Shown in pieces: positions 12,403 to 64,000 of a DNA stretch of 64,000 bases (position 1 is its first letter; every line of letters begins with the position of its first letter). This DNA comes from Bryobacteraceae bacterium (GTDB lineage: Bacteria > Acidobacteriota > Terriglobia > Bryobacterales > Bryobacteraceae): positions 372,001 to 436,000 of the forward strand of contig BPGD01000001.1 in assembly GCA_026002855.1 (NCBI GenBank). Reading direction: 5' to 3'. Under the pieces are notes generated by a model. The model had not been told where the DNA came from and did not search any database. It was given only the letters and a program-made list of their open reading frames with translations. The translations under genes and the position numbers were made by a program.

Positions 12403-12821
12403 GGTGCGACCTTCCTCGTCCTGACGGGCGGGCGCCGCCCGCAAATGCGCATGGACAACAGGGCAGAAGTCCCGGCCGTCAGAAGACCCGGGGAGGGGAA
12501 AGAGGACTGGATCTGCTTCGGGATTCCCGCCCTGCCGTTCGCCGCGCGTTCCATGCAAATGTCGCCTTTCCTGCAATCGCCCGGCGCGCCGGCTGCGGGC
12601 CTGCGCCGCGGGCATCAGGTAGGAGTCATCGGCCGTTGGGAACGGCGGTTCAGGGCGGACTCCACCGCCACCTGTTTTCATTATCCCAGATGCAGATGCT
12701 TTCAGGCCGTGCCGCCTTCCACACGCCGGTGCTCCGGGACGGGAGGCAGGTTCCCGTCACCGGCGGCATCAAGTCGTGCACGAATGGAAAAGGCCAGCAG
12801 AACACGGACGAAGAAGGCCCA
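12403..12821. other. Intergenic stretch upstream of the GTPase gene
   Basis: No convincing gene is seen here. Short reading frames on either strand show the biased Arg/Pro/Ala composition of non-coding high-GC DNA. The only structure noted is a GC-rich hairpin at about 12425-12440 just upstream of the GTPase start. The promoter of the GTPase-thiE-permease run should lie in this stretch, but no clear -35/-10 pair was identified. Confidence 0.5.
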
Positions 12822-58434: not shown

Positions 58435-58485
58435 TATGGCAGCCGGAATGTGACCGGAGCAGAGGAGCCAGGAAAAAAGCAGGAA

Positions 58486-58534
58486 TGGTGAGCGCGGGAG
58501 GAATCGAACCTCCAACCTACTGATTAAGAGTCAG
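58486..58534 (-). other. Attachment site: 3' half of tRNA-Lys(CUU)
   Basis: On the minus strand the sequence matches the 3' half of tRNA-Lys: anticodon stem and loop CTCTTAA (anticodon CUU), variable region, T-arm GGAGGTTCGATTCCTCC (58497-58513), acceptor strand CGCGCTC (58490-58496), discriminator A and CCA. The 5' half is absent: the bases beyond 58534 do not form a D-arm or acceptor partner. Integrases that use tRNA genes usually leave exactly this at one end and rebuild an intact tRNA at the other. It is therefore read as one end of the element, with the whole tRNA expected beyond the window. Confidence 0.85.
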
Positions 58535-58641
58535 CCGAAAGGACCTCCTCGCTCGTCCTCGGCTGTAACTACAACATATTTAGGAACTATCACTTACGCT
58601 CACCTTGCTTCCTCGTCGATAATCGCCGATAATGTCGGAAA

Positions 58642-58758: not shown

Positions 58759-59943
58759 GTGAGTGAAGCCAGACCAAAGATCATCACGATGCCGAGCCGA
58801 GCGGACAGGCGTCGTGCCAAAACGGTGAGGGCCACTCAGGCAGCCATCGACTCGCTCCCCTACAACAGCGGCACCTGGCGAATTGAGGGCTCGATGGGAT
58901 TGTACATTCGGTGCCGGGCGAAGACGAAAAGCTATTTGGTACAGCGCAAGGTCAATGGCCGGCTTGTCCAGAGGGTGCTAGGCACCATGACGCTTGCTCA
59001 GGCGCGGCGGGAAGCTCAAAAGATCTGGCGCGACCTGAAGCCCGCGCCGCCGGACGGCCGCGTAACGCTTGAGGCGGCGTGGGGCCAGTACCTGAACGAA
59101 AAGAACCTCGCGCCGAAGACCCAGAAGCTGTATCGGGAGCATCTGGACCGTTACCTGAGCGACTGGAAGGGGCGCACGTTGGAGGACCTGGGCAACAGCC
59201 GCGCTGACGTTCGAACCCGCTACCACGCGATCGCCCGGCACCACGGCGTCGCAACGGCATCGAGCGTCTACCGGACGTTGCGCGCCGTTTACCGCTACGC
59301 GGCGCGTGTTCAGACGGATCTGCCGCCGCCGCCGACGGTGGCCGTAGACATTGCGACGCCCAGACCTCGCGACTGGGCTTTGAGTGACGATGAGCTGAGG
59401 TCGTGGTGGGACGCCGTAGAGCGGCTGCGGCCGATGAAGCGCGTGATGTGGCTGACCCTGCTGCTGACAGGCGCGCGGGCAGCCAGTGTGCTGTATCTGC
59501 GCTGGAACGACGTGGATCTGGAGCGGGGCGTGATTCGGTTTGCCGTCGCCAAAGGCGGCCGGTCGTACAGCGTGGCCGCGTCCAGGCGGCTGATCGATGT
59601 CCTGCAAAGATGGAAGCGGCAATGCCCGCCCACTGCGGAGGGCTGGGTATTTCCGTCGCCGGTGCTCGAGGGTCAGCCGATCACAACGGTGAGAGACGAC
59701 AAGCGGGGCGTGGTATCCGCTCATCATCTTCGACACACGATGCGGACGCGTCTGGCCGAGGCGGGGGCGACGCCCGACCTGGCGCGAATTGCATTGGGGC
59801 ACAGTCTGATGGCGGACGTCAGCCAGCGTTACATCACGGCTTCGCTGCTGGTGGAGGCGACGCGGCCGTTGATGGAAGCGGTGGCGGAAGCCTATGCGCG
59901 CATTCTCTCGTGGGAGGATAAAGATCTTGTCGGTGCCGAATAG
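58759..59943 (+). CDS. Tyrosine recombinase (integrase)
   Basis: A 394-residue phage-type integrase. Order: N-terminal arm-binding part (about 35-95, DUF4102-like), SAM-like core-binding domain (100-190) and catalytic domain. Catalytic residues: R240 in LTGARAAS, K265 in VAKGGRS, H322/R325 in HHLRHT, H348 in LGHS and Y358 in SQRYI. All are in place, so it should be active. GTG at 58759 follows AGGAGG by six bases. It would insert the element into the tRNA-Lys gene whose 3' half lies just to the left. Confidence 0.95.
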   Translation: MSEARPKIITMPSRADRRRAKTVRATQAAIDSLPYNSGTWRIEGSMGLYIRCRAKTKSYLVQRKVNGRLVQRVLGTMTLAQARREAQKIWRDLKPAPPDGRVTLEAAWGQYLNEKNLAPKTQKLYREHLDRYLSDWKGRTLEDLGNSRADVRTRYHAIARHHGVATASSVYRTLRAVYRYAARVQTDLPPPPTVAVDIATPRPRDWALSDDELRSWWDAVERLRPMKRVMWLTLLLTGARAASVLYLRWNDVDLERGVIRFAVAKGGRSYSVAASRRLIDVLQRWKRQCPPTAEGWVFPSPVLEGQPITTVRDDKRGVVSAHHLRHTMRTRLAEAGATPDLARIALGHSLMADVSQRYITASLLVEATRPLMEAVAEAYARILSWEDKDLVGAE

Positions 59944-60766
59944 AGCCGAGCTAGTCACCGCGCTGCGGGAACGTGCTCTTCGATTGCTGGCAGAGATCGC
60001 GCATGCGGACGCAGTGGCCGAGAGGCTGATGAAGCTGGCCGAAGCGCGCTGGATGGTGAACACGGGCGGGCAGGGCGACGCGGCAGAACAGGGGCCGGCG
60101 AAGGCCGCCGGGGTCAGGAAAGCGCAAAGGGGGAAACATCGCGCCACGACCGGGCCGGCCGCCACAACTGGCACCGCAAGCGAAGAAGAGGATCTGGGGC
60201 AGACACAAGGGCAACAGCTGGAGGCGGATCTGCTGGATGCCCAATGGAGAGAATTCAAGCAGGGGATTGCGATCCTGCATCAGCAGATCCGACGGGCCCT
60301 CAAGATCCTGTCCGCCGGCGACCCTTTGCGGGACAGACTCGAGCGCCTGTCTCTTTGCCGGGGTGGGGGACTCAGGATGGATGAGTTGCGCGAGGAGCTG
60401 GAATTGATTGTCGCGATGGATTCGCCCGGCTCCGGCCTGCCGATGAAGACCTCGGGAAATGATCCGATGCAAGTTGAGCCGGCTCCTGAAGAAGAGGTTC
60501 CGAGATCCCGGCGGCGAGGCCGGCCCGTGAAGTTCAGCGATGCTGAGAAACAGCAGCTGCTCGAGATGAAGCGGCAAGGCGCCAACATGGTTCAGATCGC
60601 GCGGCGGATGTATCCCGGGCAAGCGATAGACGAGGCTGTCCTTCACAGAGTGCGCAGCAATCTCAATCAGTGGTCGAAGCGATTTGCCGTGAAGCTGGCT
60701 GAGGGAAAGCGATCAGAAAAACAGCAGATCCGATTTCCGGAGCCGGAGCGAAGACCTCAGCATTGA
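59927..60766 (+). CDS. Putative DNA-binding protein of the element
   Basis: A 279-residue basic protein not matched to a named family. The first 40 residues are a helical Ala/Glu/Arg stretch, followed by a charged linker. Residues about 190-215 hold an AT-hook-like SRRRGRPVKF, and right after comes a helix-turn-helix-like segment (SDAEKQQLLEMKRQGANMVQIARRM). It probably binds DNA. TTG at 59927 with GGAGG nine bases upstream is preferred to ATG at 59894, which would overlap the integrase by 50 bases. A candidate for binding the repeats further right. Confidence 0.6.
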   Translation: MSVPNRAELVTALRERALRLLAEIAHADAVAERLMKLAEARWMVNTGGQGDAAEQGPAKAAGVRKAQRGKHRATTGPAATTGTASEEEDLGQTQGQQLEADLLDAQWREFKQGIAILHQQIRRALKILSAGDPLRDRLERLSLCRGGGLRMDELREELELIVAMDSPGSGLPMKTSGNDPMQVEPAPEEEVPRSRRRGRPVKFSDAEKQQLLEMKRQGANMVQIARRMYPGQAIDEAVLHRVRSNLNQWSKRFAVKLAEGKRSEKQQIRFPEPERRPQH

Positions 60767-61052: not shown

Positions 61053-61111
61053 GTCAAATAAATCCGGATATTTTGAGTCATTCCGCGATTTATGTGATGG
61101 ATTTATTTGAC
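61053..61111. repeat. 13-base perfect inverted repeat before the HTH gene
   Basis: GTCAAATAAATCC at 61053-61065 recurs as its exact complement at 61099-61111, with 33 bases between. This AT-rich pair stands 24 bases upstream of the HTH gene ATG. Operator or recombination-directionality sites often have this form; spacing is too wide for a normal terminator. Confidence 0.75.
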
Positions 61112-61134: not shown

Positions 61135-61368
61135 ATGGACGATGTTCTTGGCGGTCGTTGGGTGACCGCGCGGGAGTACGCGCGAATTTTCGGCCTCAGC
61201 GAACAGGGCTTGGCGAACATGCGGCTTCGCGAGCGGAAGCTCGGTCGCCGCGCTCCAGATGCGCCCATCTGGGCGCGGTTCGGACGCGCGGTTCGCTACT
61301 TTATTCCTGGCAATCTGCTCAATCCGGCGGGGAACGATCTGCGCAATTCTGCCGACGCGGTCGCCTGA
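61135..61368 (+). CDS. Excisionase-like helix-turn-helix protein
   Basis: A 77-residue protein with a winged-helix start (GRWVTAREYARIFGLSEQGLANMRLRERKLGRR) and a wing ending FGRAVRYFIPGNLL, the pattern of MerR/AlpA/excisionase-type HTH proteins on integrative elements. Such proteins steer excision or regulate the element. A GTG two codons upstream (61129) is also possible. It precedes the DUF3987-like gene by 49 bases and follows the inverted repeat. Confidence 0.78.
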   Translation: MDDVLGGRWVTAREYARIFGLSEQGLANMRLRERKLGRRAPDAPIWARFGRAVRYFIPGNLLNPAGNDLRNSADAVA

Positions 61369-61386
61369 TCGATCAAAGAAAAAAAT

Positions 61387-61403
61387 GCCCGCCGACGGCG
61401 GGC
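61387..61403 (-). terminator. Hairpin with T-run on the minus strand
   Basis: GCCCGCC and GGCGGGC (7 pairs, 3-base loop) followed on the minus strand by ATTTTTTTCTTTG. It reads as an intrinsic terminator for leftward transcription, although no leftward gene is seen. On the plus strand it lies in the leader of the DUF3987-like gene, 8 bases before AAGGAG. Confidence 0.5.
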
Positions 61404-61417
61404 GAAAGGAGATTTCT

Positions 61418-62806
61418 ATGACTGACAATAAGTATACCACAGGGTTTTTGTCGCCGGCCACTTGGGCGCCTCCCGAGTTTCCCCTCAGTGCGCTCCCGCC
61501 TGCCATAGGCGCAGTTGCCGAGGCCGTTGCACACGCTGTCGGCTGCCCGGTCGAGTTCGCGGCGGGTGGCGCGCTGGCAGCCATGTCGTTCGCCGTCGGC
61601 TCGACGCGCGGCCTGGAAATCCAGCCCGGCTGGGTGGAGCGGCCCTCGCTGTACATCGCGCTCGTGGGGCCCTCGGGCTCGGGCAAGACGCCGGCGCTGA
61701 ATGCGGCCTTGGCGCCTGCCCGCCGACTGGCAAGTCAGCTCAATCAGGACCGGTCACAGTGCGAGGTCGTGGCCGAGGCGACCACGGAGGCGCTGGCGCT
61801 CCTGTTGCGCGATCGGCCGCGCGGCGTGCTACTTCACGCCGATGAACTTTCGGCGCTGTTTGAAGGGTTCGGCGCGTACCGCGGCGGCCGCGGCGCCGAC
61901 CGGCAGTTTTACTGCTCCGCGTGGGGAGTCGGGTCGTTCCAGATTACCCGCGTTCAGCGGTCGCAGGGGCCGCGGCGGCCCGAGCTCATCGAGGTGAGAG
62001 ATCCGTTGCTGAGCATCGTTGGCGGCCTTGTGCCGGAGCGGTTGAACGCGTTCGGCAGCGGACCGCTGCTGAACGACGGGCTACCGCAGCGGTTTTTGTT
62101 TTTCCTTGCCCGGGAGACGTCGGATTCTGCAGGGTCGCCGAGCCCACCCGAGGTCAGGCGCGCCTACGAAGACTTGATCGAGAAGATGGCCCGTCTCCGA
62201 GGTACGGCCTACAATCGCGAGTCGAATCTGGTTTTACGGAAGTTCTCCCCGTCGGCCGGAGAGCTCTTTCGGCAGTTGGCCGCCGACCTGCGTGAGAGCG
62301 CGAAATCGGCAGGCGATGCCGCACTTTGCTCGTACGGCCCCAAACTCGTTTCTCTGTTGGCTCGGCTCGCGCTGCTGCTTCACGAGGCGGCCGTGGCGGA
62401 TGGAGCTGACCCCGACGTCGTGGATGAAGCGCCGCTCTGGGGAGCCTACTTTCTGGCCGATTTTGCGCTCGAGAGCTTTCACCGAGTCTTGCAAATCCTG
62501 CGTGCGGGAGTCGACCTCGATCGTTGCAAGCGGCTGGCGAGGGCCGCGGCGGAAGCCGGCGGCGAGATCTCTGCGCGAGAGGTGTATTCGCGGCACATCG
62601 CTGGGGTCCGGTCAGCGGCCGAAGCCGCGCAGCTTTTTGCTGACGCCGAGCGGCTGGGATTCGGGGAGATTGCCGTGCGCGTGCCTGCGACGGGCGGCCA
62701 TCCGCAGACGTTTTTCCGGGTGCGCTTTTCTGGCCAGCGGTCCGGGGTGGAGCAGTTGCAGAAGTCGAGTGCAGCACGAGTGCAGCATGGGTGTTTTGGG
62801 GGATAA
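61418..62806 (+). CDS. DUF3987-like P-loop protein
   Basis: A 462-residue protein. Walker A GPSGSGKT at 84-91, Walker B-like GVLLHADELSALFE (136-149) and a later GGLVPERLNAF segment match DUF3987/YfjI-type proteins, which occur on integrative elements and phages and look like primase-helicase partners. The C-terminal part (about 330-440) is helical with a winged-helix-like end. ATG at 61418 has AAGGAG seven bases upstream. The last codons run through a tandem repeat (62766-62787), so the C-terminus contains two copies of a repeated DNA motif. A role in element replication is inferred. Confidence 0.78.
   Translation: MTDNKYTTGFLSPATWAPPEFPLSALPPAIGAVAEAVAHAVGCPVEFAAGGALAAMSFAVGSTRGLEIQPGWVERPSLYIALVGPSGSGKTPALNAALAPARRLASQLNQDRSQCEVVAEATTEALALLLRDRPRGVLLHADELSALFEGFGAYRGGRGADRQFYCSAWGVGSFQITRVQRSQGPRRPELIEVRDPLLSIVGGLVPERLNAFGSGPLLNDGLPQRFLFFLARETSDSAGSPSPPEVRRAYEDLIEKMARLRGTAYNRESNLVLRKFSPSAGELFRQLAADLRESAKSAGDAALCSYGPKLVSLLARLALLLHEAAVADGADPDVVDEAPLWGAYFLADFALESFHRVLQILRAGVDLDRCKRLARAAAEAGGEISAREVYSRHIAGVRSAAEAAQLFADAERLGFGEIAVRVPATGGHPQTFFRVRFSGQRSGVEQLQKSSAARVQHGCFGG
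62766..62787 (+). repeat. Repeat family A: tandem pair within the 3' end of the P-loop gene
   Basis: CGAGTGCAGCA occurs twice in direct tandem (62766-62776, 62777-62787), inside the last codons of the gene. The same core GAGTGCAGCA appears in inverted form further right. Confidence 0.85.
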
Positions 62807-62839
62807 GTTGTTCTGCCGAAACGGCTTATGGGCAATCAT

Positions 62840-62927
62840 GGGCGAGTGCCGTGTGCAGCATAAGATATAGAAGTTTCGGGCCGGGTCCTGAATTCTCCAT
62901 CTATTATGCTGCACACGGCACTCGCCC
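62840..62927. repeat. Repeat family A: 24-base perfect inverted repeat
   Basis: A 24-base arm at 62840-62863, starting GGGCGAGTGCCG, is matched exactly in complement at 62904-62927. The 40-base spacer is AT-richer. The arm contains a variant of the family core (GAGTGCCGTGTGCAGCA). It could form a large hairpin or cruciform. No T-run follows. Confidence 0.9.
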
Positions 62928-62974
62928 GAAATTGGCAATAACACAAATCCTATCAATGGCTTGCAGTCAAAAAT

Positions 62975-63000
62975 CGAGTGCAGCATCGATGCTGCACTCG
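62975..63000. repeat. Repeat family A: 26-base perfect palindrome
   Basis: CGAGTGCAGCATC at 62975-62987 is followed directly by its complement at 62988-63000. It contains two head-to-head copies of GAGTGCAGCA. A dimeric protein could bind here. Confidence 0.9.
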
Positions 63001-63152: not shown

Positions 63153-63694
63153 GAACCATCTCATGTCCGTTCGCCGCTGGCCTCATGCGCCATCAGAACG
63201 GATCTCGCGCAGTCGACTCGGAAGCGCGAGATTGCCGATGCTATCCTGGACGCGGCGCCATATTGCCGCGACCCGATGGCCGGGCTGGGAGTTGCCTCAG
63301 GGCCCTGATTTTGGCATCCGATGGCGAGTCGCGGTCGCTTACACTGCAGACTCTGGATCAGGCTCCGCGGATGATTCCAATCAGCAGCAGAGGCAGACTC
63401 CAGTCCGACACCGACAAGCAGCTCGTCACTCCAACGCGCAAAAACAGGACAGAACATCGCAGTCGGCTCGCGATCGAACCTGGGCTCTCGGCTTGGTGCG
63501 GCTTCCACGATCTTTCGAACTGGCTTGTTGAAGTGCCCTCGCGGCTTTCAGAGCCTCTGCATGCCCGTGGTAGGGCCGACGCCGCTTGCGGTGATGAAAT
63601 CCAGCAGAGAAGCCCCACTTCCCAGACAATCAGCGAAGCCGATATTTTCAGCATTCGTGACGAATTGCGGCGGAGTTCTGTCTCAGCTTCCACG
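63153..63694. other. Element stretch without a supported gene
   Basis: Several short frames exist, but none has a ribosome site, a start that fits and a recognisable product. One plus-strand frame after 63152 reads TDLAQSTRKREIADAILDAA, which looks protein-like but has no start codon, so it may be a gene remnant. Confidence 0.45.
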
Positions 63695-63737
63695 TCGGAC
63701 AGATTCGGACGGAGGGGTGGGCGCATTGCTGTCCGAA
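63695..63737. repeat. Repeat family B: first cluster
   Basis: TCGGACAG at 63695-63702 and TTCGGACGG at 63704-63712 are direct copies. CTGTCCGAA at 63729-63737 is an inverted copy of the core. The 8-base arms could pair across 26 bases. Confidence 0.8.
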
Positions 63738-63793
63738 ACTGGCCGAAGCGTAAGTTGCTGCAGGGAGGAGAGATATCCGTCTGGCCGCCGGGT

Positions 63794-63811
63794 TTCGGAC
63801 AGTTCGGACGG
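63794..63811 (+). repeat. Repeat family B: tandem pair
   Basis: TTCGGACAG followed directly by TTCGGACGG. With the inverted pair at 63915-63932 it forms an 18-base inverted repeat with one mismatch, about 103 bases apart. Confidence 0.88.
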
Positions 63812-63914
63812 TCTTTCCGGCTATATTTTCTTCTTTCATTCTTCTTCTTTTTTTTCTTCTCCTGAAAGTTGTACAGAAGGGACAATTAGAAAGAGAAGAA
63901 AGTAGGCTCCCGAT
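63812..63914. other. Spacer with pyrimidine tract
   Basis: The stretch between the inverted copies of family B contains a long C/T-rich tract with T-runs (about 63832-63863), followed by GA-rich sequence. The low complexity yields meaningless Lys- or Phe-rich frames on either strand. Confidence 0.7.
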
Positions 63915-63932
63915 CTGTCCGAACTGTCCGAA
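63915..63932 (-). repeat. Repeat family B: inverted tandem pair
   Basis: CTGTCCGAA occurs twice in tandem, the complement of two TTCGGACAG units. Confidence 0.88.
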
Positions 63933-63978
63933 GGGGCCGATTCTGATCGATAAGCCGTGCATTATCATTTGCTTGCGA

Positions 63979-63997
63979 TTCGGACAGTTTCGGACAG
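63979..63997 (+). repeat. Repeat family B: last tandem pair at window end
   Basis: TTCGGACAG at 63979-63987 and again at 63989-63997, with one extra T between. The array may continue beyond the window. Confidence 0.85.
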
Positions 63998-64000
63998 CAA

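Follow-up and report, generated by a model that had tools for sequence, protein, structure and literature searches.

A candidate iteron-type replication origin behind a DUF3987 helicase gene in an integrative island of a Bryobacteraceae bacterium

Described origins and the layout of array A

The replication origins of SaPI and PICI elements are described as lying immediately 3' of the initiator gene, with two sets of iterons placed around an A+T-richer region (PMC6092414, PMC7581432), and the C-terminal domains of SaPI Rep and SCCmec Cch2 are reported to bind the downstream iterons (PMC7581432). In SCCmec, the putative origin in the cch2-ccrC intergenic region is reported to hold both direct and inverted repeats just behind the helicase gene, with few 5-nt iterons, and binding there is reported to need the direct and not the inverted repeats (PMC7581432). 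The P4 ori/crr is named as the cognate site of alpha (PMC6092414), the archaeal plasmid pRN1 is described with a single long stem-loop downstream of its replication gene that is needed for replication (PMC4234260), and PICMI satellites are defined with an integrase and a DUF3987 primase (PMC10803314). Literature searches returned no paper on iterons with VapE and a replication origin, and none on phage satellites or PICIs in Acidobacteria.

The window analysed here, a stretch of 64,000 nucleotides, corresponds to positions 372001-436000 of the 4.44-Mb chromosome of a Bryobacteraceae bacterium. Near its right-hand end starts an island of 37 kb that carries defence-like genes and is inserted in tRNA-Lys, recognised from a 51-bp direct repeat (window 58484-58534, i.e. 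genome 430484-430534, and identically at genome 467727-467777) whose right copy lies at an intact tRNA-Lys, from a tRNA-like remnant (58489-58554) overlapping the left copy, and from an adjacent tyrosine integrase gene (58759-59943, forward strand; Pfam Phage_integrase, E 2.6e-16). From the integrase onwards the island holds, in order, genes for a 290-aa protein with only sub-threshold HTH profile matches (59894-60766, forward strand) and for a 77-aa protein that is HTH-like by eye only and has no Pfam match (61135-61368, forward strand), the gene of the 462-aa DUF3987 helicase-type protein proposed here as the initiator (61418-62806, forward strand), array A, a second array with the motif TGTCCGAA, a defence-like block, array D and the right end. 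The helicase-type protein matched Pfam DUF3987 (E 7.3e-45 for the longer frame 61259-62806) and the PHROG family "DNA helicase" (E 6.1e-23). A perfect 13-base inverted repeat just 5' of the 77-aa gene (61053-61065 and 61099-61111) is a possible operator. The block behind the TGTCCGAA array, comprising a mad1-matching HTH protein, a serine recombinase, a PLD-type helicase and a DUF499/HmaC protein, was found both at genome 437239-453329 and at genome 191407-207345 (L035, L012, L034, L010), and is thus common to two islands with different integrases.

Array A is a closely packed group of 11-base repeats directly 3' of the helicase gene (window 62766-63000, genome 434766-435000, forward strand), for which a first-pass annotation had reported tandem, inverted and palindromic copies, six in 235 bases. 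A repeat search and a script recovered this arrangement, with six copies of GAGTGCAGCA at up to one mismatch, i.e. a tandem pair, one copy in each hairpin arm and two opposed copies in a palindrome. The density, claimed to be far above chance, was borne out in 2,000 shuffles of the array, drawn like all shuffles in the scripts from a first-order Markov model, which held no copy (1,949) or one (51), and 535 further stretches of 235 bases from the window likewise held none (527) or one (8). The unit has four parts, the first being a pair of direct iterons of period 11, CGAGTGCAGCA and CGAGTGCAGCAT (62766-62788, forward strand; repeat search and reading), that overlaps the open frame ending at 62806, such that the last codons of the DUF3987 gene lie inside the array and the tandem copy is, as annotated, partly translated. 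Behind it stand a hairpin with perfect 24-base arms (62840-62863, forward strand, containing the direct pair CGAGTGC-CGTGTGCAGCA, and 62904-62927, reverse strand, containing the inverted pair; repeat search and script) around a 40-base spacer (62864-62903), then an A+T-richer gap (62928-62974) and a perfect 26-base palindrome of two opposed iterons (62975-63000; repeat search and script). With mismatches allowed in the repeat search, the hairpin arms extend to 55 bases at 78% complementarity, and at up to two mismatches the copies run direct, direct, direct, inverted, direct, inverted. The G+C content is 43% at 62862-62905 and 38% at 62925-62974, against 66% for the window, and the lowest 60-base value in the array, 40%, falls below about the 1st percentile of 500 random stretches.

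Judged by its architecture, array A is probably a site of a known kind, and it is considered likely to be the iteron-type replication origin of the integrative element, recognised by the helicase encoded just upstream. The low G+C content of the array and its location in an island with an integrase and attachment-site repeats, features of PICIs and phage satellites, are in keeping with this reading. Most likely, the DUF3987 protein would bind the CGAGTGCAGCA iterons with its C-terminal domain, would assemble on the opposed iteron sets and would open the A+T-richer parts of the array, and copying of the excised element would start there. As described for SaPI and PICI origins, the array stands immediately 3' of the initiator gene in an integrase-bearing island, with iteron sets around an A+T-richer region, and the iteron-reading C-terminus described for their initiators would have its counterpart in the C-terminus of the DUF3987 protein, which from its sequence reads as a putative DNA-binding domain. 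In contrast to the SaPI and PICI origins so described, the proposed initiator is a DUF3987 protein instead of a member of the SaPI Rep families, the terminal palindrome forms a further set, the A+T bias is weaker (opposed iteron sets are present, but the A+T-richness of the spacer and gap is not strong), and the island measures 37 kb and has orphan copies of the array. The SCCmec origin resembles array A in its direct and inverted repeats behind a helicase gene, but the helicase family is another one and opposed copies are prominent in array A (PMC7581432). The downstream stem-loop is shared with pRN1, where it is a single long one and not an iteron array (PMC4234260). The defining integrase and DUF3987 genes are shared with PICMI, whereas AlpA and Fis were not identified in this island and no iteron array forms part of the PICMI description drawn on here (PMC10803314).

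The second array of the island, with TGTCCGAA in both directions around a pyrimidine-rich stretch of 30% G+C, occupies 63694-64000 and continues to about genome 436021 (window 64021), with nine copies of GTCCGAA (0/300 shuffles). This array, denser and more A+T-rich than array A (minimum G+C 30% against 40%), could be the true origin, in which case array A would serve in regulation, partition or copy control, or be transcribed into a hairpin RNA. The orphan copies would fit the sites of a regulator, and hairpin pairing is kept across five arrays (A-D and the homologue in G029 described below), with 6 of 33 pairs changed on both sides. However, the tandem copies, which stand outside the hairpin, have diverged in step with its arms, suggesting a protein that reads duplex DNA, no Rfam match was found at array A, and the position and copy order of array A match those of helicase-linked arrays elsewhere. 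Further, the looser TGTCCGAA words behind an ATPase gene in the island of array C (genome 190375-190684) number four, a count reached by 4 of 300 shuffles. An exchange of roles between the two arrays is on this balance regarded as unlikely.

Copies of the array within and beyond the genome

Across 237 genomes of the family, the DUF3987 protein matched only itself and a protein of another genus (genome G029) at E 1e-20. The two proteins are 47% identical, and the stop of the G029 gene is followed directly by an array of the same four parts, whose motif has diverged and whose spacing is almost identical, and then by a serine recombinase gene. The retention of layout and spacing behind so diverged a helicase gene supports the reading of array A as an origin. 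A covariance model of the five arrays, run on the 237 family genomes with stricter filters (E <=0.1), matched six genomes, of which G000 and G029 were true matches, and at these settings there was no further true copy. The match in G180 (L043) is a CRISPR array with a palindromic repeat core similar to the array palindrome, and those in G026, G078 and G009 were judged from their alignments to be chance.

Wider searches gave a similarly narrow distribution. A two-row DUF3987 profile at E 1e-25 matched only the own genome among 399 genomes of the class, as did copy B, searched as DNA, among 200 family genomes. With one mismatch allowed, GAGTGCAGCNCGAGTGCAGC occurred among 396 searched genomes of the phylum at four places in the own genome and at a single place in each of three others, none of these three being array-like. 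Seven stretches in a general genome-contig collection were taken as chance, none having GCTGCACTC within 600 bases downstream. One of the seven, L033 from a proteobacterial MAG, has three tandem words of the GTGCAGCAC type without the rest of the array. No array DNA and no DUF3987 protein (E 1e-5) were found in plasmids and phages, viral contigs gave no exact GAGTGCAGCNCGAGTGCAGC and no match by protein, two-row alignment or hairpin pattern, and solved structures returned only designed repeat proteins with weak E-values.

Within the 4.44-Mb genome, the exact 12-mer CGAGTGCAGCAT occurs 11 times, always inside one of four arrays, and its reversed control pattern does not occur; the motif, which the first-pass annotation had allowed might prove a widespread intragenomic repeat, is thus confined to four places. 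Besides array A these are array B (genome 4304250-4304489), array C (genome 207099-207339, reverse strand) and array D (genome 453086-453323, reverse strand), the last inverted relative to A and 18 kb away in the same island. Array A alone of the four stands behind a helicase gene. The suggestion that the array always follows a DUF3987-like gene therefore holds for array A and for G029 and fails for B, C and D; B and D appear instead to follow a frame with a PEP-CTERM-like tail, and in the searched regions of B and C and the rest of the D region there were no DUF3987 relatives beyond a short match at E 0.067. Arrays C and D form the end of the block shared by two islands, in three segments (about 2.5 kb at 94% identity, about 1.1 kb at 98% and about 11.7 kb at 91%), and array B is a remnant with flanks in common with both. 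Array A shares only the unit with B, C and D and not the flanks, with identities of 82-83/89 at motif positions, 73-77/146 in the spacers and 6-10/23 in the flanks, and this conservation of motif positions over diverged spacers is a further argument for an origin at array A.

A unit of 235 bp in four copies, with ends formed by inverted CGAGTGCAGC and with nothing but the unit in common between array A and the others, could also be a small non-autonomous transposable element of the MITE type. Such an element would be expected as independent insertions with target duplications. However, no target duplication is visible at the four junctions, the shared flanks of B, C and D indicate that these are not independent insertions, the genome yielded no longer element bounded by these ends, and the G029 unit occupies the homologous place behind a diverged gene, making this explanation highly improbable. 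The orphan copies are unexplained by the origin reading, which is weakened by the lack of a helicase gene beside them. They are not a general trait of such arrays, as the array behind the own-genome VapE gene (L096) has no second copy, the matches beyond itself and its own palindrome being at E 0.39 or worse. In P4, ori and crr are two cis sites read by one helicase, an arrangement that arrays A and D would match.

Arrays behind helicase and recombinase genes of the family

Repeat arrays were scanned behind helicase genes as 7-mers in 320 bp. A sample of 141 family genomes gave 24 VapE matches in 17 genomes, of which 22 were scorable, one of the other two running to a contig end and one having no open frame. 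Arrays of 5-12 copies of one 7-mer followed within 320 bp 3' of 17 of the 22 genes (0/200 shuffles each), with the first copy at most 25 bp from the stop in 12 of the 17, and the remaining five genes had 2-4 copies, no array by the threshold, and were counted against the origin reading. Among 129 control ends of frames of at least 300 codons, six had at least five copies, arrays A and B among them, and 29 scored PF13148 loci (of 30) included four with at least five copies, namely L122, G029 and array A counted twice. These counts show that arrays go with particular mobile-element helicases, while PF13148 genes as a class do not predict them. The first-pass annotation had proposed an iteron-like origin, a partition site or an array bound by a protein of the element itself; of these, the origin gains from the G029 homologue and the VapE loci and is retained as probable. 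Most PF13148 loci are without an array, and this lack in the class weakens the origin reading. At L122 (genome G011), seven copies of GACAAAA, in both orientations, stand behind a DUF3987 gene of a different size (837 codons).

The VapE arrays resemble array A in their place behind the stop, in their order of direct, inverted and opposed copies and, in those read, in an A+T-richer middle, and differ from it in helicase family and in their motifs, which also differ among themselves (TGTTCCC, GTGTTCC, GTGGACC, GTGTACC, GTGCACC, TGTCACC and others, several loci sharing one). At up to two mismatches, L095 and L091 run as six direct, two inverted, one direct and two inverted copies, and L110 as six direct, three inverted, one direct and one inverted, while at L096 direct copies begin at the stop codon and are followed by an A+T-rich stretch, then by inverted copies and a palindrome at the end. 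L093, L097, L106 and L111 are limited to a single direct and a single inverted set, and at L112, L098 and L103 individual copies depart from the shared order. The recurrence of this layout with other motifs behind VapE helicases, one of them in the same genome, supports an origin function for array A.

The small serine recombinase of the island occurs twice in the genome at an identity of at least 98%, once in each of two array-bearing islands, which raises the idea that the array is a res-like recombination site of this enzyme and that the inverted arrays A and D, lying around its gene, may bound an invertible 18-kb segment. A recombinase gene also directly follows the G029 array and comes after the array at L077. 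Against a res site, the scan of 33 recombinase loci (30 of the 36 matches of one search and three of another; 8-mers in 280 bp, at least four copies, both strands) found at least four copies at only three, two of them behind helicases (L061 of G029, and L077) and one with a G+C-rich word (L081), such that an array does not regularly accompany the gene. Among the VapE loci L090-L113 this recombinase is near one only (L106), both own copies are kilobases from any array, and direct copies of period 11 are not the usual form of res sites, leaving this a very unlikely account. At L077, copies of TGTTCCCA stand right behind the end of the VapE gene and are followed by the recombinase gene and by genes that, read by eye, are terminase-like, suggesting a layout also found in prophages.

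Repeat words and the helicase C-terminus

Between two VapE paralogues in one genome (L106 and L111 in G036), 85% identical over 618 nt, 6/6 direct and 3/4 inverted copies have switched position for position from the GTTCC to the GTCAC type, with three old-type GGAAC words remaining at the distal end of L111. The two proteins differ at 15 of their final 136 residues, and 10 of these amino-acid differences are concentrated in the terminal 23 (Fisher 5e-6). This joint change of repeats and C-terminal stretch suggests that the VapE helicase C-terminus reads the iteron, and is also in keeping with array A as an origin. The broader Mantel statistics agree weakly, with rho 0.35 (p 0.016, 18 loci) for whole protein against motif and, over 17 loci, rho 0.28 (p 0.038) for the C-terminus and rho 0.22 (p 0.09) for the rest. 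Once relatedness was removed, the link between motif and C-terminus was not significant (partial p 0.11, 17 loci), which weakens the origin reading. The signature R[YF]RxR accompanied the TGTTCCC motif in 5/6 proteins against 0/11 (Fisher 0.001) in a hand-typed table of 17, and is a lead only, as it was chosen after looking.

A tentative extension of these observations, possible rather than probable, is that the C-terminal stretch of each element helicase, whether VapE or DUF3987, reads a private iteron word and that both switch together. If so, many elements could be copied in parallel within one cell without interfering with each other, and the orphan arrays B, C and D would serve the same initiator as second cis sites or would be borrowed origins, in the latter case with the block copied by another element's helicase; array D lies at the edge of the defence-gene block shared by the two islands. 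As a sequence rule, a helicase gene followed by direct, inverted and opposed copies would mark where integrative elements of this little-studied family are likely to have their origins, and natural pairs of motif and C-terminus, above all the two paralogues of one genome, make initiator-origin recognition directly testable. Elsewhere in the window, Rfam placed a fluoride riboswitch at 12613-12678 (49.6 bits).
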